64,000 nucleotides of DNA, from contig JAWHQI010000004.1 of the NCBI GenBank assembly GCA_033032865.1, positions 28,254,001 to 28,318,000 on the forward strand, written 5' to 3'. The stretch is from Dactylorhiza incarnata (Eukaryota > Streptophyta > Magnoliopsida > Asparagales > Orchidaceae). Both the position numbers and the translations under genes were made by a program. Shown here piece by piece: positions 21,420 to 63,905 of this stretch (the stretch's first letter is position 1; the number at the start of each line of letters is the position of its first letter). Under the pieces are notes generated by a model, which was not told the DNA's origin, searched no databases, and saw nothing but the letters and a program-made list of their open reading frames with translations.

Positions 21420-24400
21420 ATGGAAGGTGGATACGCAAGAGGTCTTGGTATTGAACTCCTCACATCGACTAACTTTAAAAAATGGAAGTCATGTATGGAG
21501 AGTTACTTGCTTGGCGAGGATCTATGGGAGGTAGTTGGCGGAGAAGACACACAAGAGGTGTTTCTAGCAGGAGATAATATGGCAGAGGTGAGACTTTGGA
21601 GGAGGACGAATGCTAAAACAGTGTTCACTCTCAAAAGGGCTATCTCACCGGAGCTGTTTGATCACATCATCGGATGTAAATCTGCTGCTGAGATTTGGAC
21701 ATCCTTGGATGGGTTGTTCAATAAGAAGAATGTAGCGAGGCTACAATATCTTGAAAATGAGTTGGCGAAATCCTCTCAAGGTGATCTTTCTATTTCCACC
21801 TTCTTTCTCAAATTGAAGAACCTCACGGCAGAGATTTCTGCGTTGGACCCTGATGAGCATATCTCTGAGGAAAAACTGAAGAGGCATATCATCCGCGGGT
21901 TGCGGAAGGAGTATCTTGCCTTTGTGACTTCAGTTCAGGGTTGGGCAAATCAACCGTCGTTGTTGGAGCTGGAGAACCTTCTTGCTTCACAAGAAAGTTT
22001 AGCAAGACAGATGGCGGGGGTTTCTATCTCCAGGAGAGAAAGTGATGTGATGTTCTCTGGGAAGAAGAAGAAGAAATGGGAGAAGAAGAAGTCGGGTCAT
22101 GATGGACCCTCCACTTCAGGTCAGCAAGATAGAGGCTATGCCCCTAAGTCTGATGGGAAGAAGAAAGGAGAGGGACCGAGGTGCTTTAGATGCAATAAGA
22201 CCGGGCACTTTAAGAAAGATTGCCGGGTGAATCTTCAGCCGGGACATGCAGTGGAGAAGGAGATGCCAAAGTCTGATGAAGTTGGATGGGGAGGAGCCTT
22301 TGTGTCTAATATAACGGCGATGCCCGTTAAGGCCTTGGCTTCCATCAACTATGATGAGGACTGAATTGTTGATTCAGGGTGTGGGCATCACCTCACCGGG
22401 GATGGATCAAAGTTCTCCTCTTTGGCACCTTACTCAGGTAACAATGCTATCATTACGACTGATAATTCTATTCATCCAGTAGAACATGAAGGTGTTGTCT
22501 CTCTGAGCAGTGATAAGGGTCCACTCACATTGAGGAGTGTTTATCACGTGCCTGGTATGAAGAAAAATCTTTTCTCTGTGACCAATGCGGTCGACGCCGG
22601 TTATCACGTTCTGTTTGGCCCAACAGAAGTGAAGTTTCTCAAAACTCAACCGGAGATAAAGGGAGATGTTATTCATGTCGGCAAGAGGGTGAAGGACTTG
22701 TTTATTACCTATGTTGATAAGATGAGGACCAATGATGGCGCGACTATCTGGCATGAAAGGTTGGGGCATGTAGGCATGGACAAATTGAAGGCTATGGTAG
22801 TTAGGGGCCTTGTCAATGGCTTGCCTAGCTTGTCCTCCTATGGATACGGTCATGTCTGCGAAGGATGTCAGTTTGGTAAGTCTCATCGACTTCCATTTGA
22901 CAAATCGCAAACAAGGTGCAAAGTGTCGTTGGATTGCATCCACGGTGATTTGATGGGACCGACTGCCACCCCGAGCCTTGGAGGCAACAGATATATGTTG
23001 GTGTTGATTGACGATTACACCAGATATGTCTGAGTGTATTTTTTGAAGGAGAAGTCGGATGCATTTGCAAAATTTGTGGAGTTCAAGGAGCTGGTTGAAG
23101 GCCGGCTAGGCCTTCGGGTTAAAAAACTTAGAACTGATAATGGTGGGGAGTTCACCTCTGGTGAGTTCTCAAGTTTTTGCAGGAAGCATGGCATCAGGAG
23201 ATAGCTTACTTGTGCCCATACTCCACAACAGAATGGCATTGCCGAGAGGAAGATCCGTCATCTGACGGAAACTTACAAATGTTGGCTTCATGCTAAGAGT
23301 ATACCAAAGTCCTTCTGGGCGAAGGGAATGTCTTATGCAGCTTATGTTATCAACAGGTTGCCTTTAAGTCCTATCAACATGAAGACCCCTCACGAATTGA
23401 TGTTCAAGGAGAAGCCGAGTGTTGCACACCTTTGGGTGTTCGGGTCAACCTGCTATGTGCATATTCCTGATGCTCTTCGGACAAAGCTAGATGCGAAAGC
23501 AAGGAAGCTAGTCTTTGTTGGGTATGATGGGCGGAAGAAGGGATGGAGATGTATGGATCCTGAGACACGGACATCTATGGTATCTCGGGATGTGGTGTTT
23601 GATGAAGTGACTTCCTACAAGGGGAGTTCAGGAGTTGAACTACCTGAGAGCAGGGTTGATGAAGAAGGGAAAGCTGCGGGAAGTCTTCAAGTGGAGTTGT
23701 CTGTTTCACCAGGAGCTCCAGCTGTGTCAAGCTCTGAGATGGAGGCTTCAGGTTCTGGAAGCAGGGGGAGCGATGCTCCAAGTTCATCTGGAAGAGGAGC
23801 TTGCACAGAAGAAGCAGCTGAGGAGGTGGTTAGTCAGTAGCAACCTCTAAGGAGGTCGAAGAGGACTATTCAACCACCAGATCGATACACATGAGGGAAC
23901 ATGGTGAACTTTGTTTCATGCTTCTTCGCTGGTCCCTTGGATGAGAGGGAGCCGTCGAGCTTTGAGAAGGCCAGAGGCGTGAAGGAGTGGGACATTGCTA
24001 TGCAAGAAGAGATGGCAGCTCTCGAGAAAAATGAGACCTGGTCTCTTGTGCCCAAGCCCAAGGGCACCACTCCTGTGACATGCAAATGGGTCTACAAGCT
24101 CAAGAAGAAAGCTGACGGCAGTATCGAGCGGCATAAGGCTCGCCTTGTAGCTCGCGGGTTCTCACAACAGTACGGAGAAGATTATGATGAGACATTCAGT
24201 CCAGTGGCAAAGATGACTTCAGTTCGATTTGTTATTGCCTTGGCGGCTTCAAGTGGTTGGGAGATTTGACAACTCGACGTGAAGAATGCCTTCTTATACG
24301 ACGAGATTGACAAGGATATCTTCATGATCCAACTGCAAGGCTTCATCTCAAAGGAGTATCCGGACTACGTCTGTAAGTTGAAGAAGGCCCTGTATGGGTT

Positions 24401-25496
24401 GAAGCAAGCGCCTCGAGCGTGGTACGGGAAGATTGCAGAGTATCTCTTATTCTGCGGATTCCTTGCTTCAGACTCTGATTCTAGCTTGTTTATCAAGAAG
24501 GAGGGGGTGCTTCGGGTGATTGTGCTGCTGTATGTGGATGACATTATTGTCACCGGGAACTCAAAGGAAGCTGTTGCAAGTCTCAGGGCTGAGCTTGCTA
24601 TCATATTCGAGATGAAGGATCTGGGGGAGCTCCACCATTTCCTTGGACTCGAGGTGCAGAGGCGGGAGAGCGGTGTGCTCATTTCTCAGGCTGGCTATGC
24701 GGAGCGGATTGTTCAGCGATTCGGCATGGAGGAAGAAAAGAGCACCTCTATACCTCTGGAGCAACATCATAAGCTTCAGAAGGATGAGGGAAGAGTTTTA
24801 TCTGAACCGTTGGTGTTCCGAGCTCTGGTTGGGAGTTTGATCTACTTGACGATCACAATGCCAGATATTGCTTATGCAGTTGGCAAGGTGAGTCGGTACA
24901 TGGCGGAACCACGAAAACCTCATCTTCTGGCGGCAAAAGGCATCTTGAAGTATGTGAAGTCGACCTCTGATTTGGGTCTCCTATATAGGATAGGGTCAAG
25001 CTTGGAGTTGCATGGTTTCATGGATGCTGATTATGGGGGAGACGTGGATGATCGGAGATCAATGTCTGGTTATGTCTTTATGACGGGCCCCACAGCTATC
25101 TCTTGGTGCAGCAAGAAGCAAGACTCGGTGTCTGTATCTACCACAGAAGCGGAGTACAAGGCTTCGGCCTTGGCAGCTCAGGAAGCCGTTTGGCTCAGGA
25201 GGTTGGTGGAGGACGTTCATCAGGAGGTTCGAGGTCCCACCTTGCTACACGGGGACAATGAGAGTGCTCTCAAGCTGGTTAACAATCCAGTCTGTCACGC
25301 GAGGACCAAACATATAGAGATTGAGCACCATTTCATTCGTGAAAAGGTGTTGGGAGGATCTCTTATGGTCGAGCATGTTCGGAGTGCGGACAATGTCACT
25401 GACATCTTCACAAAGCCGCTGGTGAAGGGACCGTTTACACGGTTAAGGGAGTTGCTCGGGCTAGTTTCCACTTCCCACTTCAAGGGGGAGTGTTGA
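21420..25496 (+). pseudogene. COPA gag-pol, disrupted
   Basis: Copia-type polyprotein in one frame but with stops. Order: Gag (21420-22364) with the CCHC knuckle CFRCNKTGHFKKDC; protease around the first TGA at 22362; GAG-pre-integrase and integrase with HHCC and the LTPQQNG-type region; reverse transcriptase with YVDD at about 24531; RNase H with SVSTTEAEYKA. Stops relative to COPB: TGA 22362, TGA near 23031, TAG near 23203, TAG near 23838, TGA near 23892, TGA near 24267; four look like TGG or CAG changed by one transition. There is also a short deletion near 22700. The final stop lies six bases inside the 3' LTR. Non-functional, but close to COPB over its whole length. Confidence 0.92.
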
Positions 25497-26688
25497 AATT
25501 GTTGAAGTGAAGTGAAAGGGAGTCCGGCCGGTCTGAAGGCTGGAGACCGCAGAGACCGCGCGGTCTGCACTGGTACTCTGGCGGTTTGGTTCTGCGATCT
25601 CTCCCTGCTGTTCTGGCGATCTGCTGTATTCGACCAGTTTGCTTCTTGGTTTGGTCGTTGGTTCTGACGACCTGTTGCGAGTTCTACCGGTCTTGTTCTG
25701 GGCGGCCTGTTCTTGGTTGACCGCAGTGACCGGGTGGCTTGTTTGAGCTGTTCTGGCGACTTGGTTCAAGTCGGCCAGATGTTTCTGTTTAGGCGATCTC
25801 AGGAAGGGTGGTCGCTGTGTCCGCGCGGCTTGTGCGCAGCTTGCTGCTGACTTCGGTCTTGGACTGAATCTTGTCCAAGTGTTGTGTTCGCGCGGTCTGC
25901 CTTGTGAGACCGTTCGCGATCTGATGGGCGGTTATTGTATCCCGGTTTGTGCGGTGACGACATCCGTCTCTCCGTCTATAAATAGGGGTGCAGGGCCCAT
26001 CATTCCTAACAAGAATAGTAAGAACAAGAGCCCAGATTGTTTCTTGCGGTCTCAAGTTTGGAGTCGCGCGATCTCGGAAGTGAGCTAACCGGTTGTTGTG
26101 TTCGCAGGTTTGCGGTCAGCAGGTTGCGGTCTCCTTCCTTGGTGATTTCCGGTGGCTTGAATAAACAGTTCGTCTGCGGTCTGTCAGCGAACTGGTTTAT
26201 TGTGTTCTTGTGCTGTTCGCAGCTAGCTCAGTGATCAGGCGACCTTCAGCGGTTAGGCGATCAGAGTTGCGGTCTGGCGACAGCTTCAGTTCTTTGTTCA
26301 ATTCAATAAGCTTCAGTTCGCGCGGTCTCGGGTTGCGGTCTGGCAATGCAGGTTCTCTGCTTCTGTTCGCGCGGTCTCAAGGTGCTTCTGCGGTCTGGCT
26401 GTGCAAGCGGTCTGGAGGTACAACAGAGCAAGCTGGGCGATCTGAACCTTTTTGCGGTCTGTGCGGTCTCTGGTTTGGCAGACCGCCATTTTGAGTTTTT
26501 GGTGTGTTTTGTTCTCACCTCCGTGATTCTTATGAATCATGTCTCGCCATGTATGCCTCGAAGTGTAAAGCAGTTTTGTTTCAATAAAGATTTCTTGTGT
26601 TGCTATTTTGGCATTGTGGTTGTTTGGCTATAACTCTTGTTGATACAACTCCTGCTTACTCCTAAACGGTCTTTCAAAAATTTTAACA
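25491..26688 (+). repeat. COPA 3' LTR
   Basis: 1198 bp, TGTTGAAATT...TTTTAACA, with TATAAATA at 25977-25984 and many GCGGTCT/AGACCGC words. Ends at the GTTCA duplication, after which TAT2 reverse transcriptase resumes. Confidence 0.95.
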
Positions 26689-32290: not shown

Positions 32291-32328
32291 AGACATGAAT
32301 TCTGGGGAAAACAGGACAATCAGGTCAC

Positions 32329-33590
32329 TGTTGGATCTTGCGGCGCCCTTAGAGGGGGGGGGGGGGGGGGTGAATAAGGGCCTTTTAGAAAATATGATTT
32401 TTACTTAAGAATTTTAAAACAACTTTTACTTTTCTAAAAGTTACTTATAAAAATTTCAAACTAATGTAATTTTTAGAATAAATTCAAACACAAATTTCTA
32501 TGTTAAAGATTAAACAACCATATTTGCAATTAAAGAAAAAGTCATAACTTTATAATTATGAAAATCACATACAAATAATATGATCTTAACAATGCTTAAG
32601 ATCAAGGCACAAATATGATAATAACCCTTTTACAATTTGTGTTTACCAATCCTTCTCCCAAGGATCGGAAGGCTATCACTTGTCTCTCTCTAGACCAAGC
32701 CTATCCTCTAGATCTTCCCAAGATCTAGACGTAGCACACAAGGCCACGATTTCCCACCAAGCCACGCAAGGACTTGGACGCTCCACACAAGGAAGCGATT
32801 TTCCCCTAAGCCACACAAGGACTTAGACGTCACGCACAAGGAGACAATTTCCCTACCAATATAAAATGAAATGTATATAAATGAAAATACAAAATGAAAA
32901 GAACAACTCCCTAGAAATTCAGATCTCTGAAAGGAAGGTTGAAGCCTCGAGATGATCGTTGATGAAGAAGCGCTCCCGATCTCGTCTTCAATCCCAAACC
33001 TTCTAAGCACAAATGGGAGTTGATGAGGTTCTGGAGCTCTCTAGTTCGTATGCACTCAGGAAGGGACTTGAAATTTTCAATACTTGGAATGCACGAACAA
33101 AAGGAGCCAATATATAGAAATTCGCTGTCGCCTGGGCGACATCGACTGTCAGAATTTCCGACAGCACTAAACTGCCGCCGTAGTGCTGTCGTGCATGCGG
33201 TTGCTGTAACCTCCGAGCTATCGCCTGGGCGACATCGATGTCGGATTTCCGACAACGCAAAACTGCCGCTCGTAGTGCGGTCGTGCGGGCAGTTGCTCTA
33301 ACCTCCGAGCTATCGCCTGGGCGACATCGATGTCGGATTTCCGACAGCGCAAAACTGTCGCTCGTCGTGTTGCTGTGGGGGAAGTTGTTGTAACTTCTCT
33401 GCTGTCGCCTGGGCGACATCAGCTGTCGGAAAATTCCGACAGTGAAAATTTCATACTCTCAAATTGAGCTCCAGCAGAATTGTGAACATCTCATACCTGT
33501 TACCTGCACACCATTAATAAAAATAGAATCAAATACAAACGGGACTTTGTTATTATCAAACCGGAAGAGTGCGAAACGCATGCTCCAACA
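32329..33590 (-). repeat. SIRC 3' LTR (left)
   Basis: On the minus strand TGTTGGAGCATGCG...GATCCAACA. U5 contains a long C run (on the plus strand about 18 G near 32352) beside CTAAGGGCGCCG; the other LTR has about 11 G here. The palindrome-TATA promoter is at 33108-33443. Confidence 0.93.
33108..33443 (-). promoter_or_regulatory. SIRC LTR promoter: paired palindromes upstream of TATA box
   Basis: Four repeats (about 33124-33167, 33217-33263, 33305-33354, 33402-33443), each pairing TGTCGCCTGGGCGACA with TGTCGGAA(A)TTTCCGACA. On the minus strand the array runs into TATATATTGG (33108-33116). The second LTR has the same four at 49434-49755. Conserved CpG-rich palindromes in Sirevirus LTR regulatory regions are established knowledge; the identical module inside this element is described separately. 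Confidence 0.75.
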
Positions 33591-33850
33591 ATCTCCCCCT
33601 TTTGATAATAACAAATCAGTATAAAAAGAAATCATGTCTATTTAGGTTGTTGATTTTAACATATGGTGTGTGCACAAAAATAACATTATATATTCCTCTT
33701 AAGAGTAATCTCCCCCTAGATGAAAGCTCCCCCTAAATGAATGCTCCCCCTAAATGTTATAGTAAATTGAAATGATGTATTGTTTAGGTTGACTATTTAG
33801 GTGTAATAGTTCTTTGATTTCTTGAATATACTTATAATTCTCCCCCTTTT
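33591..33850 (-). other. SIRC polypurine tracts (multiple)
   Basis: On the minus strand, AGGGGGAGA/C motifs at 33591-33603 (abutting the LTR), 33708-33720, 33726-33737, 33743-33754 and 33838-33850. Repeated polypurine tracts are a known Sirevirus trait. Confidence 0.75.
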
Positions 33851-34902
33851 GGTATTAGCAAAAGGTAATGAATGAGTAGATCGTAAGGGAAGAGAGAGGA
33901 TTGAGAAAATAAGAGTAAGCGGAAGCACTTGTTGGGAAAAAGAGTGAAAATCTTGAAGTAATAGTAATATGCCATAGTATTGTATAAACTCATGAATAGA
34001 CGGTATAGCCATATGAAGTAATAAAATAAAATAGTTTAAACATGATTAAGGTCATTTTAAAGTATCATAGAAAGACACAATTGTGTATAGAAATTTGGAA
34101 TATTTTCGGTCCAATTCTCATGAGATGAATGTTTATATAACATAATGATGTGTACAAGTGATACTTAGATCAAACATATGAAGTTGTTTAATGTACATGA
34201 TCATTGGAATAGAGAACATAATATAAGCATATAAAGACAACTTTGACCTTGAAGCGATAGCATAAGAAGAATTGAATACCATTTTTCTTTTGCACAAGAC
34301 ACCTTACAATTCTGTCCAAGGTGCTTAACCTCACAATGCTTATTAAGACTTATCAGGAGGGTAAGTAGTGCTTGGTGGAGTATCCTTGTCTTTAATTTAA
34401 ACTTTTTTTTGATCACATATTTTGTGATATCTTAGTATCGAGATATTGATAATTTTTTAATTGACCAAGGATCTCCGAATTCACTTAAATCGCAAGAGAT
34501 GGTGTATATTTTGTTGTGCTAACAAGTCAAGGTTGAAAGTAGTATTTATGAAGTGCTATTGTATTATGTTAAAGCAAATATGATTCATGTATATATTAAA
34601 TAGAAAGACATATGTATGGATCAAAAGAAGTGAACGTGATAGTCCATTATTATATATAAACAATTTCTCATACTTAGAGGCATGCAAAAAACAAGTTCCA
34701 ATAGTCTAAACAACTAAGTAGGAGTGTCAATACGATGATAGATTTGAAATGAAATCATATAATCATGTAATAGCCATTTTTTTACAAAAATAAAAAGCAC
34801 ATGGTTTGGCATCAATTCATGAGTTGTAGCATTAATAAAGACATATAACCATTGGAAAACATCAAATGGACCAAAAAAACTGAAGATTAAGCAAATCAGG
34901 AG
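33851..34902. other. SIRC noncoding spacer
   Basis: About 1 kb of A/T-rich DNA between the polypurine tracts and the internal promoter. No gene or repeat recognised; short predicted frames lack recognisable features. Confidence 0.5.
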
Positions 34903-34958
34903 CTGTCGGAAATTTCCGACAGTCACTGTCGCCTGGGCGACAGCTAAAAATATAAATA
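34903..34958 (+). promoter_or_regulatory. Internal promoter of the SIRC extra gene
   Basis: Perfect 20-base palindrome CTGTCGGAAATTTCCGACAG (34903-34922), then CTGTCGCCTGGGCGACAG (34926-34943), then TATAAATA at 34951-34958 on the plus strand, seven bases after the second palindrome. These are the same two palindromes that precede the LTR TATA box, here pointing the other way. Transcription start would be expected about 30 bases on, near 34985 (inference). Confidence 0.65.
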
Positions 34959-35053
34959 CGGCCTAAAACCGAGTCAAACCCTATTGTGCATCATTTCCTG
35001 GACTTAAGGGCGAGAGGAAGCTGTCGGATATCGGCGACAACCCTAGATATAAG

Positions 35054-35596
35054 GTATGGGGTTTTTGATTTTGAAGTTTTTGACTTAAAACCTTTAGAGA
35101 TTTGTGATTTTGGAAAGGGGAGAAGATGAAAAATGTGTTTTTCAATTTACCTTTGATGAATGGTGTAGATCCTTGAAGTTTTGTGTAGAAAAGGTGTAGA
35201 TCGAGTGGAAATCAAGTGGATCTTGGTGGATCTTAGTGGATTTTGTTTGGATGTTGTGATTTTTAGGGTTTAAGTTGTGAATTTTTTTTAATACAATGTT
35301 TAATTTCAAAAACTGAAGCTTGTTCTTTTGAAGAAGGTTGAAGAAGATGAATAGTAATGGATATGTGAGAAGATGTGGTTTGTTCCAAAAATTTTTTTTG
35401 GTTAACTTGATTTTGAAATATAGCTTGATTTTGAAATATAGCTTGATTTTGAGTAGATCTGGAAGTGTAGTTGAAAAATTTAAAGAAAAGTTCACTGGAG
35501 TACTGTCGGAATTTTCCGACAGCCAATGTCGCCTGGGCGAGATCGTTCTAGTGCACAGAACTTGTTTAATTCATTTTTGTTATGTTATGTTTGCAG
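35054..35596 (+). other. Candidate 5'-UTR intron of the SIRC extra gene
   Basis: Donor AAG|GTATGG at 35054 and acceptor TTATGTTTGCAG ending at 35596, two bases before the ATG at 35598. The 543-base interval is T-rich, as plant introns are, and contains another palindrome pair (35503-35540). Splicing is inferred from consensus sites only. Confidence 0.5.
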
Positions 35597-35597
35597 A

Positions 35598-36713
35598 ATG
35601 GCTTCCAGTTCGAAGGCGCGAAGGAGTACGTCAGAAGATGCGCATAGTTCGTATCAAGTTTACCCTAGGGTGGAGAAAGCAATAATTGGAGTAGCAAAAT
35701 ATGTAGAATTTGATTCTCCGAAGCACGATCATATCTATGATCGTCTTGCGAATGCAGGTATAATTTCAGTAATCACAGCAGATCCGTTCTCATCCTTTTT
35801 GATTCGAGAATTTTATAATCATTTGGAAGACCCGAGTTATACCGAATGGGATGGGGGAGTGAGATCTAGAATCCAAGGTCAACAAGTGGAAATAACACAT
35901 GTTGATCTTAGAGTGGAATTCGGTCTTCTTATGAGTGAACATATGCCTGATATAGTAGAGAGCTATAGAAAGGATAGAGATTGGACCCTTGTAAACATGA
36001 GTTTACATGGAAGTCAAAAGAAGACCCTAACCACTGAAGTTTCGTCACTCACTCCGGATGCATATTTAGTCCAAGATATATTAAGGAACTCAGTTATGTT
36101 AAAGAGTGGAGATACAAGGAGTATCACAACACAGTTGACGCTCATTACTTACTTTATTATGGAGGAGGAACCTTTTGATGTAGCGGACTTCATCCTTTCT
36201 CAGATTCGGTATGCTTTTAGATTAAAACATCCAAAATGGGTGAAGATTCATACTTTGCCAATGGGGGCAATAATTCAATGTATACTATATAAGAAGTATG
36301 AATGGATAGTTCAAGATTCGTACTTTGATGATTGTTTTCCTGAGATATATTATACGGGAACTATGAGAGTGAAGAAGATGCAGAAAAAGCCTCATCCTGG
36401 AATTGAGATTAGAGAGCCTCCAATGCCTAGGGCAGGATCACTACGAGAGTCTATAGATGATCTGCGTGATTCCTTTGAGGATCACAAGAAGGAAGTGAAG
36501 AAAGATCGTAGTAGAATGCAGAAGTTTATGAAATTTTTGGTGAAAGGTTTGAAGTTAAAGACTACTCCGGAAGAAGCGGCCGAATGGCAAATTCCAGATG
36601 AAGAACCGCCATGCCAATCAGTGAGGCGGACTCGACGTGGTAAGGCCGTAAGACGAGGACCTTCAGAAGATTGTCCAGAGAGCAGCGGGGCTGGTTATGA
36701 GGATTCTGAGTAG
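35598..36713 (+). CDS. SIRC antisense extra protein (plant-transposon-protein-like)
   Basis: Intact 371-codon frame, antisense to the element and convergent with pol. The start at 35598 (MASSSKARRSTS) is preferred over an in-frame upstream ATG at 35526, because the upstream part reads as intron and palindrome sequence. Residues about 20-230 are mixed alpha/beta, with a RIQGQQVEITHVDLRVEFGL segment and a long helical part (YLVQDILRNSVML, TQLTLITYFIMEEE). The C-terminal third is charged with a K/R/E-rich coiled region (LRESIDDLRDSFEDHKKEVK) and a basic tail. The fold pattern resembles the 'putative plant transposon protein' family found in extra ORFs of plant retrotransposons and matches SIRD's extra protein in places. 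Function unknown. It lacks stops although adjacent pol has several. Confidence 0.75.
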   Translation: MASSSKARRSTSEDAHSSYQVYPRVEKAIIGVAKYVEFDSPKHDHIYDRLANAGIISVITADPFSSFLIREFYNHLEDPSYTEWDGGVRSRIQGQQVEITHVDLRVEFGLLMSEHMPDIVESYRKDRDWTLVNMSLHGSQKKTLTTEVSSLTPDAYLVQDILRNSVMLKSGDTRSITTQLTLITYFIMEEEPFDVADFILSQIRYAFRLKHPKWVKIHTLPMGAIIQCILYKKYEWIVQDSYFDDCFPEIYYTGTMRVKKMQKKPHPGIEIREPPMPRAGSLRESIDDLRDSFEDHKKEVKKDRSRMQKFMKFLVKGLKLKTTPEEAAEWQIPDEEPPCQSVRRTRRGKAVRRGPSEDCPESSGAGYEDSE

Positions 36714-36741
36714 TTTTCATCAGGGTGCTGCTTCTGACAGA

Positions 36742-36781
36742 TGTCGGAATTTTCCGATATCCACTGTCGCCTGGGCGACAG
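36742..36781. repeat. Palindrome pair after the SIRC extra gene
   Basis: TGTCGGAATTTTCCGATA then CTGTCGCCTGGGCGACAG, starting 29 bases after the stop codon. Third internal copy of the LTR palindrome pair. It lies between the convergent extra gene and pol. Confidence 0.8.
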
Positions 36782-36995
36782 TGAATTTGCCCAGATTTCA
36801 TTTTCTGTTATCTGAACTTGATCCTATGTTGATTTCTACTATCTTTCTGAAACAATTTTATGTAATATTAATTTTGTGAGAATTTTTCTTAAGTAATTCA
36901 AATTCTATTTTTGATTTGAAATTTAGTCTTTCTTTTTAAAATGTATAGGTGTTGTGATATTTTTTTTATTTTATAGGTCATAAGTAGTGATGTAA

Positions 36996-38615
36996 TCATT
37001 GTGAAATGTCTAGGATTCCCAATTCTAGCCTAAGCATAGAAAAATGGGAATCCGGTAACGGTTTAGTGAATATATCCGCTAGTTGATTATCCGTGCCTAT
37101 AAATGAAATTTTTATGCGGTTATTTTTAATATGATCTCTAATGAAATGATGTCTCACATCAATATGCTTAGACCTTGAATGATGGACCGGGTTGTATGTT
37201 AAATCAATTGCACTTTTATTATCACACCATAATTCAATAGTTTGTTGTTTAATATTAAAGTCTTCTAAAGTTTGTTTCATCCAAAGAGCTTGTGCACAAC
37301 AACTACCAAGTGCGATGTATTCAGCCTCGGTGGTTGAGAGGGCAACAAAATTCTGTTTCCTACTCGACCATGAAATGAGTGAAGGGCCTAAAAAGTGACA
37401 AGTGCCACTAGTGCTTTTCCTATCTAGTGAACAACCGGCATAATCAGAATCAGAGTAGCCAAAAAGAGTAAAATTATCGCTATGAGGATACCATAAACCA
37501 AGTTTAGATGTGCCAATTAAATATCTAAAAATTCTTTTTACCGCTTTTAAATGTGATTCTTTGGGATCGGCTTGAAATCTAGCACATAAACAAGCTGAAA
37601 ACATAATATCCGGTCTAGAGGCAGTTAAATATAAAATTGAACCTATCATGCCTCTATATAAAGTTTGATCTATTGATATTCCATTTTCATCTTTTCCTAA
37701 TTTTAAAGATACACTCATAGGAGTATTTGCTTGTTTGAGATTTTCAAATCCAAATCGTTTTAAAACATCATGAATATATTTTGATTGGTTAATAAAAACT
37801 CCATCATGTTTTTGAACAATTTGAAATCCTAAGAAATATTTTAATTCTCCTACCATACTCATCTCAAATTCACTTTCCATCATTTTTACAACATAATTAC
37901 ACAACTCTTCATTAGTGGCTCCAAAAATAATATCATCAACATAGATTTGTAAAACAATTAAATCATCATCTACTTGCTTAATGAAGAGTGTACAATCAAC
38001 ACCACCCATTTTAAAACCATTTTGTAATAAATATATAGTCAATCTATCATACCATGCTCGTGGCGCTTGTTTTAAACCATACAAAGCTTTTAACAATCTA
38101 TATACGCGATTAGGAAATTTTTCATTTACAAATCCTGGGGGTTGTTCAACATAAACTTCTTCTTTAATCAACCCGTTTAAAAATGCAGTTTTAATATTCA
38201 TTTGCAATAATTTAAACCTTTTATGACTAGCAAATGCAACAAAAATTCTAACTGCTTCCAATCGTGCTACGGGTGCAAATGTTTCATCAAAATCTACCCC
38301 TTCAATTTGATTATATCCTTTCGCTACAAGCCTAGCTTTGTTTCTAGTGACCCTAGAGTCACTATCTAATTTGTTTTTGAAAATCCATTTGACTCCTACC
38401 ACAGGATGATCACTTGGTCTATCTACAAGAATCCAAACTTTATTTCTTTCAAATTGGTTAAGTTCTTCATTCATAGCTAGAAACCAAGATTCATCATTTA
38501 AAGCGGTGGCAACATCTTTTGGTTCTATATTTGAGACAAAACATAAATTTGAAAAACTTTCATGTAAACTAGAACGTGTACGTACCCCACTTAATGGTTC
38601 TCCAATAACAAGTTC
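36996..38615 (-). pseudogene. SIRC reverse transcriptase and RNase H
   Basis: Copia-type reverse transcriptase from 38474 (open for 492 codons): [62 protein letters not shown] (YVDD catalytic motif), then RNase H ending with [15 protein letters not shown] and [12 protein letters not shown] at about 38619 separates it from integrase; without that single stop the frame is continuous. The C-terminus ends near 36996. Confidence 0.9.
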
Positions 38616-40235
38616 TTACGGATGATCTTTTGAGAACCTTAGCTCAGTTGGAGGTACATATCCTTGTTCTTCTTCTTCTTCACCATCTTTTTCGTCTTCT
38701 TTCTCCACTTTTTCTTCATCATCATTATCATCATTTTTCCTCAGATTTTGTTCCACATCTTCTTCATTTTTCTCATTACCTGCAACTTTAGTGTTTTCTA
38801 CACAAGAAATGTTTTCATCAAATTTTACATGAATAGATTCTTCAACAACTTTAGTACGTTTATTATAAACTCTATAGGCCTTGCTAGTTGAAGAATAACC
38901 AATGAAAATTCCTTCATCACATTTTTCATCAAATTTGCCTAAGTTATCTTTTGTATTCAGAATAAAGCATTTACAACCAAAAACTTTAAAGTAAGATACA
39001 TTTGGTTTTCTTTGAAAATAAATTTCATAAGGAGTTAATTGTAACGTGGGACGAATCATGACACGATTAATAATATAGCATGCAGTACTAACGGCTTCGG
39101 CCCAAAAATATTTTGGCAATTTAAATTCACAAAGCATAGTACGTCCTAATTCTTGAAGTGTTCTATTTTTCCTCTCCACTACACCATTTTGCTGTGGTGT
39201 GCGTGGAGCGGAAAATTCGTGTTTTATCCCAAATTCATTACAATATGAAATAAATTTTTCATTATCAAATTCTCCTCCATGATCTGATCTAATGCATTTT
39301 ACATTTAAATCAAGTTCATTTTGAATACGTGAAATTAGTTTTACAAATTCATCAAAAGCATCAGATTTTGAATTTAAAAACAATGTCCAACAAAATCTAG
39401 AATAATCATCAATAATAACAAACGTATATTTTCTAGCTCCTAGACTTTGTGTAGAAATTGGACCAAACAAGTCCATATGTAATAGATGTAAAAGTCTAGT
39501 AGTAGAAATAACATTTTTGCTTTTAAAAGATGATTTTGTAAACTTTCCTTTTTGGCATGGTGAACATAATGAAGAAAGCTTTCCATTCAAATTTGGTAAA
39601 CCTTTTATAATTTTATTTTTAGAAAGCTTTACTATGTGTTTGGCACTAGAATGTCCAAGTCTCCTATGCCATAATTCAAGTTCATCATTCTTTGAAATAA
39701 AACATTTAAGTGTAGAATGAGATAAATCATGAAAAGTGATTGTATAGACATTGTTTATTCTTGGTGCAGTAAGTACGATTTCGTTTGTTTTAGAATCAAT
39801 AATTTTGCAAAGGTTTGAGCTAGAGTCAAATAGAACATTTAGATTTTTATCACATAGTTGACTAATAGAAATTAAATTATGTTTCAAACCTTTAACATAT
39901 AAAACATTTGAAATTTTAAATTCTTCGTTACCTACTACTCCAATGCCTTTGACTTTACCCTTGCCATTATCTCCAAATGTCACTGTTCCACCTTTCTTCA
40001 TCTCCAGGCTAAGGAACTTTGATTTATCGCCCGTCATGTGTTTTGAACATACAGAGTCCAAATACCACACGTCTTCCTTGTTCCTAGCCTGCACGCACAC
40101 CTAAAAAGATGATGAGAGTAAAGATCTGGTTACCCAAGTGGTCGATCCCATGGTATAGGTGGACGCCTTAGGTACCCAGATTTGTTTAACATTAACTTTT
40201 CCCTTCTTCCAACATGAGCCCGAGATGTGACCAAA
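38616..40235 (-). pseudogene. SIRC protease and integrase
   Basis: Open from 40100 to 38616. Protease starts VWYLDSVCSKHMTGD: the active site reads DSV where DSG is required, so it is likely dead. GAG-pre-integrase and HHCC (LELWHRRLGH...CSPCQKGKF) precede the integrase core: MDLFGPISTQ, RSDHGGEF, TPQQNGVVERKN with catalytic D, D, E all present. An acidic linker (EEEEEQGYVPP) leads to reverse transcriptase. A TAG near 40101 and a TAA at 40236 in the second zinc knuckle break the frame upstream. Confidence 0.9.
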
Positions 40236-42045
40236 TTAATGACATTTGGCACACACAATGAATGGTGAGGAACCATTTTTCAATGGTTTCTCTGGACTCT
40301 TGCTGGTGGAAACATCTTTATGTGTGGACTTAGAAAAAATTTCATTTTGAAAAACAGGTTTTCTGAACCTGGAGCTATCGCTGGTTCCGACAGCAGCTGT
40401 CAGAAATTTCCGACAGCTTCCAGAAACGTATCCTAGCCCAAATTTTGCTGTCCCATGGCATTGGTTGGCTAAAAGCATATCCAGAGATTTTTGTCCAACA
40501 CCAAATTTTCCAATTGCCATGTTCAACTCATTTACTTTGGACTTTAAAATTGAGTTTTCTTTTACTATCATGCCACATCTATTTGCAACACTTTTCTTAT
40601 AATTCTCTAATTGAGAATGAGAGGTTTTAACAACTTTTTCTAAGTCCTTTTTCTCTTTTAGAAGTTGATCAATTTTTTGATCGGACTTAGAAATAGTGTT
40701 TTCAAGTTCTTTTATCCTTGTCGAAGAGTGATCAAAATCTTGACAAATTTCTTTCTCGTTCCCAATAGATTTCAAATCATTTGATAACTTTTTATTTACT
40801 TTCAAAAGAACTTTGTTTTCAGATTTTAAAAAATCAAATTGTTTTAGGCTTTTATCCAAAAATTTGCAAGTTTTCATAAATTCAGAATATAAATCTTCAT
40901 AAGATGGAGGAGTTACCTCAGTGTCGCTTTGGACACTGCAATCGTCGTCAGATGACGCATTTTCTTTCCCCATCAAGCAGACATTTGCCTCCTCTTCCTC
41001 CTGTGTTGAGGAATCACTTTCTTCACCAGACGAAGAATCATCCCAAGTCTCTGCCTTTAACACTTTCTTCTTGTAACTTTTATCGTGCCTCTTTGCTTTT
41101 TGCTCTTTCAAATACTTTGGGCACTTGCTTCTGATATGACCAATCTTCTTGCAATGATAGCACTCCGGTAGCGGACGCTCTTCTTCATTCTCCATTTTTC
41201 CTTTGCCTTTTTGGTAGGCAAAATCGTTCTTTTTGAAAAATCTCTTAAATGAATTTCTCCTCTCCGGATTTCTCATAAACTTCTTAAAGTTCCTCACAAA
41301 CAGTCCTTCCTCTTCTTCCTCACTTTCTTCAGATTCAGTTTCAACTTCCTTTTTAGATTTCAACGCCAAGCTTTTCTTTTTGGGCTCCAAATTGTACTCT
41401 TGGCTTTGAATCTTCAACTCCACTTCATGGGCTTTTAGATTCCCAATGAGACTCTCCAATTGTAAGGTCTTAAGATCATGTGACTTTAGGATTGAACTTC
41501 GGGGGAAGTGATCTTAAGATTTTCCTCACTAAATCTCCATTGGAGAAAACCTTACCCAACACCTTTGAATCGTTCACGATTTTAGTAAATCGTGTGTACA
41601 TTGTATCAATTTCTTCATCCACCTCCATTTTGAATCTTTCAAATTCTGACTCCAGTTGAAATAGCTTTGAATCCTTTACCTGCAAAGTACCTTCATGAGT
41701 GATTTCTAAAAGATTCCAAATTTCATATGCAGTATCACAAGCACAAACTCTATTAAATTCAGTGCGATCTAGTGCGCAAAATAAAGCATTCATGGCTTTT
41801 GCATTATTTTTACATCTTTATTTATCATTGTCATCCCACTTGTCTTTGTGTTTAGCCATAGTTACATCTCCTACCACAATTGTTGGAGAAGAATAACTCG
41901 TCTGGACCATATTCCAAACTTCCATGTCGAGAGCTATTAGAAAACACCGCATTTGGGTTTTCCAATAGTTATAGTCCGTGCCCGTAAAAAGTGGTGGCCT
42001 ACTAATTCCTTGCCCCTCAACGAACGCGTGATCGTTGTGCGCCAT
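40236..42045 (-). pseudogene. SIRC gag with two zinc knuckles
   Basis: Start MAHNDHAFVEGQG at 42045; frame upstream of this is primer-site sequence. N-terminus RPPLFTGTDYNYWKTQM is typical of Sirevirus Gag. TAA at 41818 and a frameshift near 41470 break it. First CCHC knuckle: CYHCKKIGHIRSKC near 41157. Then an acidic region, a long coiled coil (about 40900-40500), and a second knuckle whose Gln codon is now TAA (CAKCH, stop, FGHISGSC; 40236). Between the knuckles, at 40375-40416, the coding sequence contains a degenerate copy of the LTR palindrome pair. Confidence 0.88.
40375..40416 (-). repeat. LTR palindrome pair inside SIRC gag
   Basis: CTGTCAGAAATTTCCGACAG (40397-40416, one mismatch from a perfect palindrome) beside a degenerate partner, TATCGCTGGTTCCGACAG. 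It is translated in the spacer between the two zinc knuckles. Confidence 0.8.
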
Positions 42046-42082
42046 TACTCCCGGTGGTAAAACTGTTTTGGAGTAACCTCGT

Positions 42083-42092
42083 TCTGATACCA
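42083..42092 (-). other. SIRC primer binding site (initiator tRNA-Met)
   Basis: Minus strand TGGTATCAGA, two bases inside the 5' LTR end at 42095. Confidence 0.9.
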
Positions 42093-42708
42093 CGTGTTGG
42101 ATCTTGCGGCGCCCTTAGAGGGGGGGGGGGGTGAATAAGGGCCTTTTAGAAAATATGATTTTTACTTAAGAATTTTGAAACAACTTTTACTTTTCTAAAA
42201 GTTACTTATAAAACTTTCAAACTAATGTAATTTTTAGAATAAATTCAAACACAAATTTCTATGTTAAAGATTAAACAACCATATTTGCAATTAAAGAAAA
42301 AGTCATAACTTTATAATTATGAAAATCACATACAAATAATATGATCTTAACAATGCTTAAGATCAAGGCACAAATATGATAATAACCCTTTTACAATTTG
42401 TATTTACCAATCCTTCTCCCAAGGATCGGAAGGCTATCACTTGTCTCTCTCTAGACCAAGCCCAAGCCTATCCTCTAGATCTTCACAAGATCTAGACGTA
42501 GCACACAAGGCCACGATTTCCCACCAAGCCACGCAAGGACTTGGACGCTCCACACAAGGAAGCGATTTTCCCCTAAGCCACGCAAGGACTTAGACATCAC
42601 GCACAAGGAGACGATTTCCCTACCAATACAAAATGAAATGTATATAAATGAAAATACAAAATGAAAAGAACAACTCCCTAGAAATTCAGATCTCTGAAAG
42701 GAAGGCTG

Positions 42709-43891
42709 TGTTGAATTTTTGAAGTGGTGTGGAGGAGACCGGGCGGTCTGGTTTGGGAGACCGCGGTGATCGCGCGTCTTGTATAGGTTATCTGCCGGTC
42801 TGGCTCTGCCGGGTTGTTCTGGCGGTCTGCTGGTTGTTCCAGTCTGTTCTTGGTAGCTGCGGTTTGTTCCCGAGTAGGTCTGCTAGTTTGCCTGGCTTCC
42901 TTGTTGGAAGACCGGGCGGGTTGTTCCTATATGACTGTCTACCCGGGCGGTCTATATTGGTGATCTGGCGACTTGGTTGAAGTCGGCCAGATGGTTCTAG
43001 CTTGCTCCTGGTGATCTAAGGAAGGAGCGTTGTTGAGACCGCATGGCTTGTGCGCGGTCTCGTGTTCGCGCGGCCTGTACGCGATCTTGTCTGCTGATCT
43101 GCGTCTTGGTCGGGTGATCGACCAAGAGGTCTATTCGCGCGGTCTGTCTTTTGAGACCGTTCGCGATCTGATGGGTGGTGACTGTATCCCAGTTTGTGCG
43201 GTGACGACATCCGTCCACCCGCCTATAAATAGGGGTGCATGGCCCGTCATTCTTAACTAGAACTGTAAGAACCAGAGCCCGGATTGTTTCTTGCGGTCTC
43301 AAGTTTGAGTTCACGCGACTTGGATGCGAGTTAACCTTTGTTGTGTTCGCAGGTTTGCGGTCAGCAGGGTGCGGTCTCCTTCCTTGGTGATTTCCAGTGG
43401 CTTGAATAAACAGTTTGTCTGCGGTCTGTCAGCGAACTGGGTTATTGTGTTCTTATGCTGTTCGCAGCGGGCTCAGTGATCAGGCGACCTTCAGCGGTTA
43501 GGCGGTCTGAGTTGCGGTCTGGCGACAACTTCAGTTCTTTGTTCCAATAAAGCTCCAGTTCGTGCGGTCTGAGGTGCGGTCTTGCAGTGCTGGCAGTCTG
43601 TCCGGTTTTTGTTCGTGCGATCTCAGGGCAAGCAGGGCGAGTTCTGGAGTGGTGCGGCTTGTGCGGTCTAAGCTTATCTAGCTGCCAGCTTTGCTTTTTG
43701 GTGTGTTTTGTTCTTCTCGTCTCCGTGATTCTGATGAATCATGTCTCGCCATGTATACCTCGCATTGTAAAGCAGTTCTGTTTCAATAAAGATTTCTTGT
43801 GTTGCTGTTTTGGCATTGTGATTGTTTGGCTATAACTCTTGTTGATACAACTCCTGCTTACTCCTAAACGGTCCAATAAAAAATTTTAATA
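42709..43891 (+). repeat. COPB 5' LTR
   Basis: 1183 bp, TATAAATA at 43224-43231, dense GCGGTCT/AGACCGC words. Differs from the 3' LTR by roughly 2-3 percent by eye. The first 200 bases differ strongly from the COPA LTR, while the region around and after the TATA box is similar. Confidence 0.93.
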
Positions 43892-43980
43892 TGGTATCAG
43901 AGCTAGGTTTCTAGAGTGGATAAGCAGTGATCAACTAGAGTTGCCATCGTCTTTGTGAAGAAGAGACCACATAGATTGCC

Positions 43981-46900
43981 ATGGAAGGTGGATACGCAAG
44001 AGGTCTTGGTATTGAACTCCTCACATCGACTAACTTTAAAAAGTGGAAGTCATGTATGGAGAGTTACTTGCTTGGCGAGGATCTTTGGGAGGTAGTTGGC
44101 GGAGAAGACACACAAGAGGTGTTTCCATCAGGAGATAATATGGCAGAGGTGAGACTTTGGAGGAGGACGAATGCTAAGGCAGAGTTCACTCTCAAGAGGG
44201 CTATCTCACCGGAGCTGTTTGATCACATCATTGGATGTAAATCTACTGCTGAGATTTGGACATCCTTGGATGGGTTGTTCAATAAGAAGAATGTAGCGAG
44301 GCTACAGTATCTTGAAAATGAGTTGGCGAAAGCCTCTCAAGGTGATCTTTCTGTTTCTACCTTCTTCCTCAAGATGAAGAACCTCACGACAGAGATTTCT
44401 GCATTGGACCCTGATGAGCCTATCTCTGAGGCAAAACTGAAGAGGCATATCATCCGCGGGTTGCGGAAGGAGTATCTTACTTTTGTGACTTCAGTTCAGG
44501 GTTGGGAAAATCAACCGTCGTTGTTGGAGCTGGAGAACCTTCTTGCTTCGCAAGAAAGTTTAGCAAGACAGATGGCGGGGGTTTCAATCTCCGGGGGAGA
44601 AAGTGATGTGATGTTCTTTGGGAAGAAGAAGAAGAAATGGGAGAAGAAGAAGCCAGGTCATGATGGACTCTCCACTTCAGGTCAGCAAGATAGGGGTTAT
44701 GCTCCTAAGTCTGATGGGAAGAAGAAAGGAGAGGGACCGAGGTGCTTTAGATGCAACAAGACCGGGCACTTCAAGAAAGATTGCCGGGTGAATCTTCAGC
44801 CGGGACATACAGTGGAGAAGGAGATGCCAAAGTCTGGTGAAGTTGGATGGGGAGGAGCCTTTGCGTCTAATATAACGGCGATGCCCGTTAAGGCCTTGGC
44901 TTCCATCAACTATGATGAGGACTGGATTGTTGATTCAGGGTGTGGGCATCATCTCACCGGGGATGGATCAAAGTTCTCTTCTTTGGCGCCTTACTCAGGT
45001 AACAATGCTATCATTACGGCTGATAATTCTATTCATCCAGTAGAGCACGAAGGAGTCGTCTCTCTGAGCAGTGATAAGGGTCCACTCACGTTGAGGAGTG
45101 TTTATCACGTGCCTGGTATGAAGAAAAATCTCTTCTCTGTGACCAATGCGGTCGATGCCGGTTATCACGTTCTGTTTGGCCCAACAGAAGTGAAGTTTCT
45201 CAAAACTCAACCGGAGATAAAGGGAGATGTTATTCATGTCGGCAAGCGGGTGAAGGACTTGTTCGTTTTATCGACAAGTACCTATGTTGATAAGAAGAGG
45301 ACCAATGATGGCGCGGCCATCTGGCATGAAAGGTTGGGGCATGTAGGAATGGACAAATTGAAGGCTATGGCGGTAAGGGGCCTTGTCAATGGCTGGCCTA
45401 GCTTGTCCTCCTATGGAGACGGTCATGTCTGCGAAGGATGTCAGTTTGGTAAGTCTCATCGACTTCCATTTGACAAATCGCAAACAAGGTGCAAAGTGCC
45501 GTTGGAGTGCATCCACGGTGATTTGATGGGACCGACTGCCACCCCAAGCCTTGGAGGCAATAGATATATGTTGGTGTTGATTGCCGATTACACCAGATAT
45601 GTCTGGGTGTATTTCTTGAAAGAGAAGTCAGAAGCCTTTGCAAAGTTTGTGGAGTTCAAGGAGCTGGTGGAAGGTCGTCTAGGCCTGCGGGTGAAGAAAT
45701 TGAGAACTGACAATGGTGGGGAGTTCACCTCTGGTGAGTTCTCAAGTTTTTGCAGGAAACACGGCATTCAGAGAGAGCTCACTTGTGCCCATACTCCACA
45801 GCAGAATGGCGTTGCCGAGAGGAAGATCCGTCATCTGACGGAAACTTGCAAATGCTGGTTTCATGCCAAGAGTATCCCAAAGTCCTTCTGGGCGGAGGGA
45901 ATGTCTTGTGCAGCTTATGTCATCAACAGATTGCCTCTGAGTCCTATCAACATGAAGACCCCTCACGAATTGATGTTCAAGGAGAAGCCGAGTGTTGCAC
46001 ACCTTTGGGTGTTCGGGTCAACCTGCTATGTGCATATTCCTGATGCTCTTCGGACAAAGCTAGATGCAAAAGCAAGGAAGCTAGTCTTTGTTGGGTATGA
46101 TGAGCGGAAGAAGGGATGGAGATGCATGGATCCTGAGACACGGAGGTCAATTGTTTCTCGGGATGTGGTGTTCGATGAAGTGACTTATTACAAGGAGAGT
46201 TCAGGAGTTGATCTACCAGAGAGCAGGGTTGATGAAGGAGGAAAAGCTGCGGGAAGTCTTCAAGTGGAGTTGCCTGTTTCACCAGGAGCTCCAGTTGTGT
46301 CAAGCTCTGAGATGGAGGCTTCAGGTTCTGGAAGCAGAGGGAGCGATGCTCCAAGTTCATCTGGAAGAGGAGCTTGCACAGAAGAAGCAGCTGAGGAGGT
46401 GGTTAGTCAGGAGCAACCTCTTAGGAGGTCGAAGAGGACTATTCAACCACCAGATCGATACACAGGAGGAAACATGGTGAACTTTGTTTCATGTTTCTTT
46501 GCTGGTCCCTTGGATGAAAGGGAGCCGTCGAGCTTTGAGAAGGCCAGAGGCGTGAAGGAGTGGGACATTGCTATGCAAGAAGAGTTGGCAGCTCTCGAGA
46601 AGAATGAGACCTGGTCTCTTGTGCCCAAGCCCAAGGGAACCACTCCTGTGACATGCAAATGGGTCTTCAAGCTGAAGAAGAAAGCTGACGGCAGTATCGA
46701 GCGGTACAAGGCTCGCCTTGTAGCTCGCGGGTTCTCATAGCAGTACGGAGAAGATTATGATGAGACGTTTAGTCCAGTGGCAAAGATGACTTCGGTTCGA
46801 TTTGTTATTGCCTTGGCAGCTTCGAGTGGTTGGTAGATTTGGTAACTCGACGTGAAGAATGCCTTCTTATACGACGAGATTGACAAGGATATCTTCATGA

Positions 46901-48078
46901 TCCAACCGCAAGGCTTCATCTCGAAGGAGTATCCGGACTACGTTTGTAAGCTGAAGAAGGCCCTGTATGGGTTGAAGCAAGCACCTCGGGCGTGGTACGG
47001 GAAGATTGCAGAGTATCTCTTATTCTGCGGATTCGTTGCTTCAGACTCTGATTCTAGCTTGTTCATCAAGAAGGAGGGGGTGCTTCGGGTGATTGTGCTG
47101 CTGTATGTGGATGACATGATTGTCACTGGGAATTCGAAGGAAGCTGTTGCAAGACTCAGGGCTGAGCTTGCTATCAGATTCGAGATGAAGGATCTGGGGG
47201 AGCTCCACCATTTCCTTGGACTCGAGGTCCAGAGGCGGGAGAGCGGAGTGCTCATTTCTCAGGCTGGCTATGCGGAGCGGATTGTTCAGCGATTCGGCAT
47301 GGAGGAAGGGAAGAGCAGCTCTATACCTCTGGAGCAACATCATAAACTTCGGAAGGATGAGGGGAGAGTCTTATCTGAACCGTTGGTTTTCCGAGCTCTG
47401 GTTGGGAGCTTGATCTACTTGACGATCACAAGGACAGATATTGCTTATGCAGTAGGCAAGGTGAGTCGGTACATGGCGGAACCACGGAAGCCTCATCTTC
47501 TGGAGGCAAAAGGCATCTTGAAGTATGTGAAGTCGACCTCTGATTTGGGTCTCCTATATAGGAGAGGGTCAAGCTTGGAGTTGCATGGTTTCATGGATGC
47601 TGATTATGGGGGAGATGTGGATGATCGGAGATCAACGTCTGGTTATGTATTTATGATGGGCCCCACAGCTATTTCTTGGTGCAGCAAGAAGCAAGACTCG
47701 GTGTCTGTATCTACCACGGAAGCGGAGTACAAGGCTTCGGCCTTGGCTGCTCAGGAAGCCGTTTGGCTCAGGAGGTTGGTAGAGGACGTTCATCAGGAGG
47801 TTCGAGGTCCCACTATGCTACGCGGGGACAATGAGAGTGCTCTCAAGCTGGTCAACAATCCAGTCTGTCACGCGAGGACCAAGCATATAGAGATTGAGCA
47901 CCATTTCATTCGTGAAAAGGTGTTGGGAGGATCTCTTATGGTCGAGCATGTTCGGAGTGCGGACAATGTCGCAGACATCTTCACAAAGCCGCTGGCGAAG
48001 GGACCGTTTACACGGTTGCGGAATTTACTCGGGCTAGTCTCCACTTCCCACTTCAAGGGGGGAGTGTTGAATTTTTGA
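43981..48078 (+). pseudogene. COPB gag-pol, nearly intact
   Basis: A 919-codon frame (43981-46740) covers Gag with CCHC knuckle CFRCNKTGHFKKDC, protease (WIVDSGCGHHLTGD), GAG-pre-integrase/HHCC (WHERLGH, CEGCQFGKSH), integrase (HGDLMGP, RTDNGGEF, TPQQNGVAERK: D, D, E present) and the start of reverse transcriptase (NETWSLVP). The stop TAG at 46738 is followed in the same frame by TAG 46834 and TAA 46843, then a 408-codon frame (46852-48078) with the rest of reverse transcriptase (LYVDDMIVTGNS) and RNase H (SVSTTEAEYKA). COPA has sense codons at the first and third positions. An extra G in the polypurine tract makes the end run 14 bases into the LTR. Probably inactive, though recently so. Confidence 0.93.
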
Positions 48079-49247: not shown

Positions 49248-50157
49248 GGTTGAAGCCTCGAGATGATCGTTGATGAAGAAGCGCGGCCGATCTCGTCTTC
49301 AATCTCAAACCTTCTAAGCACAAATGGGAGTTGATGAGGTTCTGGAGCTCTCAGGTTCGTATGCACTCAGGAAGGGACTTGAAATTTTCAATACTTGGAA
49401 TGCACGAACAAAAGGAGCCAATATATAGAAATTCACTGTCGCATGGGCGACATCGACTGTCGGAATTTCCGACAGCGCTAAACTGCCGTCGTAGTGCTGT
49501 CGTGCGTGCAGTTGCTGTAACCTCCGAGCTGTCGCCTGGGCGACATCGATGTCGGATTTCCGACAGCGCAAAATTGCAGCTCGTAGTACTGTCGTGCGGG
49601 CAGTTGCTCTAACCTCCGAGATGTCGCCTGGGCGACATCGATGTCGGATTTCCGACAGCGCAAAACTGCCGTTCATCGTGTTGCTGTTGGGGAAGTTGTT
49701 GTAACTTCTCTGCTGTCGCCTGGGCGACATCAGCTGTCGGAAAATTCCGACAGTGAAAATTTCATACTCTCAAATTGAGCTCAAGCAGAATTGTGAACAT
49801 CTCATACCTGTTACCTGCACACCATTAATAAAAATAGAATCAAATACAAACCGGACTTTGTTATTATCAAACCGGAAGAGTGCGAAACGCATGCTCCAAC
49901 AGTCACCTGCATACAAAGCAACCCAGCTGGGAATACCTCCAGCACCAAATAAACACAGAAAATAGATTGGGGAGCACCAAGTGCTTGCCCCCAACAGCAA
50001 AGCGTGCAATTGCACACCAAAACGGGCCCAAAGGTGCACTTCATGTGAGAAAAGTGAACAAGTGAAATATAAGCAATAATGAACTAGAAGTGAAGTGCAA
50101 GTGTGTGAAAACAAGACCAGATGAGTCCGAAAATGTGTATATAATTGGGACTCATCA

Positions 50158-63903: not shown

Positions 63904-63905
63904 AT

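Follow-up and report, generated by a model that had tools for sequence, protein, structure and literature searches.

A conserved antisense gene with a candidate LTR-like promoter in a Sirevirus-type retrotransposon of Dactylorhiza incarnata

The stretch of DNA analysed here (64,000 nt, positions 28,254,001-28,318,000 of the forward strand of contig JAWHQI010000004.1 in the Dactylorhiza incarnata assembly GCA_033032865.1; below referred to as the window, all coordinates being window positions) harbors on its minus strand a Ty1/copia retrotransposon spanning 32329-49901 and containing a nested insertion. Between pol and the 3′ long terminal repeat (LTR) of this element, an open reading frame (ORF) of 371 codons (35598-36713) runs on the plus strand, i.e., antisense to gag-pol, and is preceded by two dyads and a TATA-like box. 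The first dyad, RM-A, is a 20-bp palindrome CTGTCGGAAATTTCCGACAG (34903-34922, plus strand), the second, RM-B, is an 18-bp quasi-palindrome CTGTCGCCTGGGCGACAG (34926-34943, plus strand), and together with the short spacer between them (3 nt in the gene) they form one module unit, in which RM-A and RM-B, sharing the half-site TGTCG, lie about two helical turns apart. The box TATAAATA (34951-34958, plus strand), presumably the TATA of the gene, follows 7 nt past RM-B and occurs only once within 33600-36995 on both strands. Transcription starting at the distance expected from this box would open a presumed leader exon (34982-35053, plus strand), which lacks ATG and carries a hybrid dyad TGTCGGATATCGGCGACA composed of half RM-A and half RM-B (35022-35039, plus strand). 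The presumed leader intron (35054-35596, plus strand) is T-rich, 543 nt long, bounded by GT..AG, and contains 14 ATGs, while the ORF starts one base past its acceptor. The open run around the ORF comprises 410 codons against a maximum of 189 when the linker was simulated 1000 times with a Markov model. The initial annotation of this DNA, which had listed palindromes seven bases before TATAAATA, a T-rich interval with donor and acceptor consensus, and an intact 371-codon antisense frame, thus described the locus faithfully.

The same module recurs in the LTRs. In the 3′ LTR (32329-33590, minus strand, TGTTGG..CCAACA as read on the plus strand), four units (33125-33165, 33218-33256, 33310-33348, and 33402-33442, minus strand) form an array with the LTR TATA TATATATT (33116-33109, minus strand) positioned 8 nt after it. 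The 5′ LTR is split by the nested copia element into a first (42095-42708, minus strand) and a second part (about 49248-49901, minus strand), the latter carrying four RM-A/RM-B units at 49436-49753, and the four palindrome pairs previously noticed ahead of the LTR TATA are accordingly found in both LTRs. Further units are located in the presumed intron, close to its 3′ end (35503-35543, plus strand), and directly past the stop codon, in the 3′ untranslated region (UTR) of the gene (36741-36781, plus strand); both had been pointed out before, with the intron unit ending at 35543 and not at 35540 as proposed. One more unit, divergent in sequence, lies within the gag coding sequence (about 40378-40416, minus strand). 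With up to 3 mismatches allowed, the window contains 17 matches to RM-B and 5 to RM-A against chance means of 0.01 and 0.00, respectively, where a quasi-palindrome may count on both strands.

The idea that the gene promoter is a copy of the LTR module is borne out in so far as the order of the dyads, their nearly identical spacing, and the orientation to the TATA coincide, but it does not hold for a literal copy, since flanks and the centre of RM-B differ. Read toward its own TATA, this centre is TG in the 3 gene units and CA in the 8 LTR units of the window, and the difference mostly holds in other copies of the element too. Over 50 nt, the sequences flanking gene units show no similarity to those flanking LTR units; a single pair, formed by the downstream flanks of the units in intron and 3′ UTR, came out near 0.05 in both runs of the flank test. 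Since the flanks past the first few bases are unrelated, gene and LTR appear to have essentially the module alone in common, and the origin of the gene module by inverted insertion of an LTR is disfavoured because of the same dissimilarity. Single units of gene and LTR may share an origin, given that the 7 nt after RM-B in the 3′ UTR unit, TGAATTT, are by eye the same 7 nt as those at the TATA-proximal unit of the 5′ LTR. Short likenesses of this sort next to RM-B (TGAATTT at the 3′ UTR unit, as well as gaps reading TGAAAAA in part of the gene promoters and TGAAAAAC in part of the LTRs) could also be taken as traces of a degenerate remnant, in which an inverted LTR fragment came by chance to lie ahead of a random open frame. 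To this possibility we attach practically no weight in view of 50-nt flanks unlike those of the LTR, an open run exceeding all 1000 simulations, the recurrence of the arrangement in all 12 LTR-chosen copies, and purifying selection, the last two being described below.

The host genome searched amounts to 3.27 Gb, and the 110 best of 8830 candidates of a protein search were scored, proving 91-100% identical over essentially full length. Besides the window copy, 49 protein-chosen copies were studied (the next 29 best and 20 lower-ranking ones taken for diversity, premature stops being absent from most of them), along with nine copies of a second subfamily (82-86% identity of the coding sequence, CDS), chosen via RM-B triplets, i.e., exact RM-B matches, among 100 places listed. 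RM-A and RM-B were recovered within 3 mismatches in 47 and 45 of the 49 protein-chosen copies, respectively, exact TATAAATA in 45, the exact donor AAGGTA in 43, and the acceptor with the ATG retained in 44; two copies (L015 and L053) had lost the promoter and were excluded from divergence counts. The distance from RM-B to the TATA equals 7 nt in 57 of the 59 aligned gene rows (window included), the length of the CDS is constant in 58 of them, and the leader is free of ATG in 45/47 protein-chosen and 8/9 second-subfamily copies versus 22% of shuffles. On the LTR side, 16 of 20 stretches placed by offset in other copies have four complete units and the TATA 8 nt after the fourth, one has a partial array, and three have none. 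Genome-wide, exact modules number 1141 for the gene type and 4071 for the LTR type, with 0 for reversed controls. Many copies of the family retain an antisense ORF located between pol and the 3′ LTR; its orientation relative to pol is observed directly in the window and implied elsewhere by the succession of LTR and gene modules. The antisense gene is a standing part of a very abundant family, with more than 1000 exact promoter modules in the genome, for which "cargo", the term of the initial annotation, is the wrong word.

Between the subfamilies, the CDS diverged with a nonsynonymous rate (dN) of 0.071 and a synonymous rate (dS) of 0.893, giving dN/dS of 0.080 (423 pairs). The effect is specific to the reading frame: values for the three plus frames are 0.082, 1.94, and 2.1, and for the minus frames 1.25, 0.19, and 2.6, where the frame with 0.19 shares third positions with the gene. 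In the promoter, the divergence is 6.4% for RM-A, 3.4% for RM-B, and 1.9% for the TATA versus 17-35% for surrounding segments that are neither dyad nor splice site nor coding. Among 1058 non-coding 18-nt segments compared between subfamilies (mean difference 0.30, gaps counted), the two least diverged non-overlapping ones start at 34924 (0.025) and 34902 (0.030), which is to say at RM-B and RM-A of the promoter. Palindromes upstream of the ORF in other copies, on whose presence the earlier proposal depended, are consequently not only present but conserved, and its independent antisense gene is sustained by dN/dS of 0.08. Because of this ratio and of palindromes kept across copies and subfamilies, the sequence data argue that the gene is under purifying selection with a conserved promoter and does not represent chance cargo. 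One could suppose that the useful product is the antisense RNA itself, providing control of the element via double-stranded and small interfering RNAs, and a possible double-stranded RNA role of antisense transcripts has indeed been discussed for such genes (PMC7264820). With dN/dS of 0.08 in the coding frame and a CDS length constant in 58/59 rows, however, we find this very improbable.

Several observations weigh against a conserved gene with a dedicated promoter. Premature stops are present in 12/49 protein-chosen and 1/9 second-subfamily copies. The way the second subfamily was selected biases RM-B there, leaving RM-A, TATA, splice sites, and ORF unbiased. Compared with the promoter pair, the units of intron and 3′ UTR show much weaker conservation, their best ranks between subfamilies being 69 to 257 of 1058. 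Within the first subfamily, the promoter dyads diverge by 4.9% and 5.3% versus 5.5% directly upstream, and when one subgroup is set against all others, they occupy ranks 40 and 63 of 1058; decay of CpGs after insertion may account for this weak conservation within the subfamily. Finally, the gag-internal divergent pair, present in 6/7 copies fetched, indicates that the dyads are more than promoter parts. Since the second-subfamily set is biased for RM-B, 12 elements were chosen by the LTR pattern alone (two LTR modules 9.5-10.9 kb apart, among 100 places listed), with the reservation that requiring an exact LTR module at each end gives preference to young elements. All 12 possess the promoter pair (no more than 3 mismatches in total), and in 10 of them TATAAATA is exact.

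The element-internal dyads, that of gag included, should judging by position all sit in the genomic RNA, and this leads to the alternative that they act in RNA or chromatin, as packaging or dimerisation hairpins or as CpG-rich silencing or boundary sites, their proximity to the TATA being incidental. The dyads do contain CpGs, and inspection by eye shows C-to-T or G-to-A for many of the differences between copies. Incidental proximity is nevertheless hard to reconcile with fixed distances of 7 and 8 nt to the TATA in two oppositely oriented promoters and with the behaviour between subfamilies, where the flanks diverge and the pair and the TATA are retained, and we regard this alternative as improbable.

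The element carrying the gene appears to be of Sirevirus type (SIRE-like), as it shows several hallmarks listed in PMC2829016. Multiple polypurine tracts AGGGGGAG are gathered near the 3′ LTR, the terminal one 10 bp away from it and flanked by an inverted repeat (33546-33560 / 33601-33615); read on the plus strand as CTCCCCCT, they lie within 33591-33850, with five copies counted by eye at 33593-33850. A palindromic RM upstream of the LTR TATA is the next hallmark, and a CGG-CCG core of the type described by Bousios is contained in RM-A CTGTCGGAAATTTCCGACAG, but not in RM-B CTGTCGCCTGGGCGACAG, which has CGCC..GGCG. The gag-pol region (36996-41459, minus strand) is open in separate pieces only, namely gag (40236-41459), the integrase part (38616-40100), and the reverse transcriptase (RT) piece (36996-38474), all on the minus strand. 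Pfam profiles gag_pre-integrs, rve, and SH3_retrovirus were found in the upstream piece of pol and RVT_2 in the downstream one, i.e., integrase precedes reverse transcriptase as is typical of copia. Duplicated target sites GTCAC flank both ends of the element (32324-32328 and 49902-49906), and the LTR parts mismatch at 9/608 and 26/653 aligned sites, from which it follows that the copy is fairly young. Related copia elements occupy 20291-26684 and 43091-49242, the second being the one nested in the 5′ LTR.

As to the encoded protein, no homologues were found at E ≤ 0.001 in a set of 5.8 billion proteins, and none at E ≤ 10 for residues 20-240; sequences of the PDB gave no match up to E 10, and IMG/VR contained no relatives of either this protein or the RT piece. 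The 18-nt core of RM-A matches three viral contigs of IMG/VR (L001-L003), its surroundings in L001 and L002 looking unrelated. Prediction of the structure from the single sequence yielded a mean pLDDT (predicted local distance difference test) of 35.1. A basic stretch at residues about 343-354 is only suggestive of a nuclear protein. The profile PF20167 (Transposase_32) matches with 34.1 bits (E 3.3e-8) and 30.3 bits (E 4.6e-7), not reaching the curated cut-off of 45, and these E-values still suggest remote homology. Four strong PF20167 genes of the host genome, out of 150 scored, were read for comparison, and upstream of them neither a repeated dyad nor a dyad next to a TATA was found; L094 has one dyad (arms of 8 bp) at 0.84 kb before the ATG, L093 one dyad inside the ORF, and L091 is preceded, by eye, by a Ty3-type integrase. 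The palindrome module is therefore no general property of the PF20167 family.

From the arrangement of these features we infer an accessory gene antisense to gag-pol that would be transcribed from its own internal promoter, one resembling the LTR promoter by tandem dyads RM-A and RM-B a few bases upstream of a TATA. Splicing of the leader intron would remove the upstream ATGs and let the 371-codon frame begin at the first AUG. A factor binding the dyads would start genomic RNA at the LTR and accessory mRNA at the internal promoter, and the reverse orientation would release the gene from LTR transcription, the two messages being complementary. Given that the module is common to LTR and gene and its geometry almost identical in both, one DNA-binding factor most likely would control genomic RNA and accessory protein together. 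Considered as a whole, a conserved antisense accessory gene of a Sirevirus-type element, with its own LTR-like internal promoter and control shared with the LTR, seems to us quite probable.

The dyads may be read by host transcription factors responding to stress or hormones, auxin response factors (ARFs) for instance, the encoded protein being unrelated in function. Such an explanation is compatible with the gene model, and its chances appear to us somewhat below even. TGTCGG represents the highest-affinity half-site of the auxin response element (AuxRE) (PMC10690724), Sirevirus motifs matched mainly stress-related PLACE sites, and near-identical motifs shared by elements of distantly related species, such as Osr10, Osr8, Vitis, and Inga, fit conserved host factors (PMC2829016). 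For ARFs, the spacing is a poor fit: AtARF1 takes inverted repeats (IRs) with spacing of 7/8 and AtARF5 those of IR5-9 with lower affinity off 7/8 (PMC10690724), whereas the spacing of RM-A corresponds to IR6 in the gene promoter and to IR4-IR6 in the LTR, RM-B has TGTCGC at IR4, and inverted TGTCNN repeats in units of the window are spaced by 4-6 and never by 7-8. Control by ARFs is thus disfavoured by dyad spacing, with the qualification that IR5/IR6 dyads could serve as weak ARF5 sites. Host factors are further called into question by a second Sirevirus-type element of the window, which bears the unrelated dyad TCGACG/CGTCGA both within the LTR and ahead of its extra gene.

The other candidate for the dyad-reading factor is the encoded protein itself, acting as a sequence-specific activator or anti-silencing factor at RM-A/RM-B of its own element (LTR, gag, own promoter, intron, and 3′ UTR). 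It is a serious option because the sites are scattered across the element and extend even into the intron of the gene itself, as in the case of VANC considered below. Although this is the next step of the mechanism that we favour, we consider it rather unlikely as a proposition in its own right, and the odds of a host factor are no lower than those of a self-encoded one. If the encoded protein did read the dyads, plant retrotransposons would gain a self-encoded regulator, self-control of a retrotransposon would proceed via a private protein-DNA code as a copy-and-paste counterpart of VANC, and the diversity of dyads among Sireviruses would be a sign that protein and site have co-evolved.

The second Sirevirus-type element (about 57627-64000, minus strand) was recognized by polypurine tract and copia gag, no pol domain being found in the three ORFs scanned. 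Half-sites of its dyad TCGACG/CGTCGA number 11 in the LTR (counted from 57647), 15 in 0.9 kb upstream of the extra gene, none in this gene, 3 in the gag piece, and 16 in the rest of the window. The extra gene is sense and apparently consists of two exons (61011-60733 and 60681-59209, minus strand), with TTAAATA seen by eye about 100 nt before its ATG. Homology of the antisense protein to the product of this gene was suspected by eye, but BLASTP and Pfam gave nothing, and it is not claimed here. Elsewhere in the window, a 23-bp palindrome GCGCACGACCACCGGTCGTGCGC is repeated in two clusters (13393-13703 and 19064-19384) about 5.7 kb apart, which are perhaps LTRs of another element.

The closest parallel is provided by the Sirevirus RM, a palindromic motif with many copies upstream of the LTR TATA and extra copies by the additional gene between pol and the 3′ LTR (PMC2829016). 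The palindromes described here likewise occupy positions upstream of the LTR TATA and next to an extra gene behind pol. According to the same source, motifs differ between many elements, some being alike or identical across elements, LTR and linker have a single motif in common in nine ENV-bearing elements shown in its Table 3, and for ENV genes an internal promoter was suspected, though not conclusively identified (PMC2829016). The elements it covers have one motif type each, mostly with a CGG-CCG core and with linker copies mostly upstream of ENV (PMC2829016), whereas here two motif types stand in a fixed pair and, together with a TATA, at the start of a reverse gene. Palindromes in Sirevirus LTRs and before ENV genes are thus known precedents, as are antisense genes with their own promoter in Grande. 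What is new is a reverse extra gene in a Sirevirus-type element, with a promoter reproducing the palindrome-TATA geometry of the LTR, and no report of a Sirevirus with an antisense extra gene was found in the open-licence literature, most subscription papers lying outside reach. A clearly selected Sirevirus extra gene thereby receives a concrete candidate for its internal promoter and a shared module amenable to testing.

Grande, RIRE2, and Retand belong to Ty3/gypsy, whereas the element considered here is Ty1/copia and SIRE-like. In Grande gene23 and other genes designated aORF-3R, the antisense gene resides in the same place, between pol and the 3′ LTR, that of Grande giving a transcript from its own promoter and a nuclear protein (PMC7264820). 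Sharing of promoter motifs with the LTR is not mentioned in the accessible parts of that paper, which is a further point of difference (PMC7264820). An extra ORF behind pol also unites our element with the SIRE eORF-3′F, described as heterogeneous, doubted in function, and forward in 74% of SIRE elements (PMC6317226); the one reported here is reverse and provides direct evidence of purifying selection. Athila ORF-1 and related PF20167 genes (PMC11728184) are similar in being extra genes behind pol and in weak profile homology, and differ in that the Transposase_32 score obtained here stays below the curated cut-off. Lastly, VANC proteins of VANDAL transposons are anti-silencing proteins, whose short target motifs are distributed across non-coding parts of the element, introns included (PMC5735166). 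The units spread over intron, 3′ UTR, and gag resemble these targets in their layout, while VANDALs are DNA transposons with direct tandem arrays of motifs and binding demonstrated by experiment (PMC5735166).

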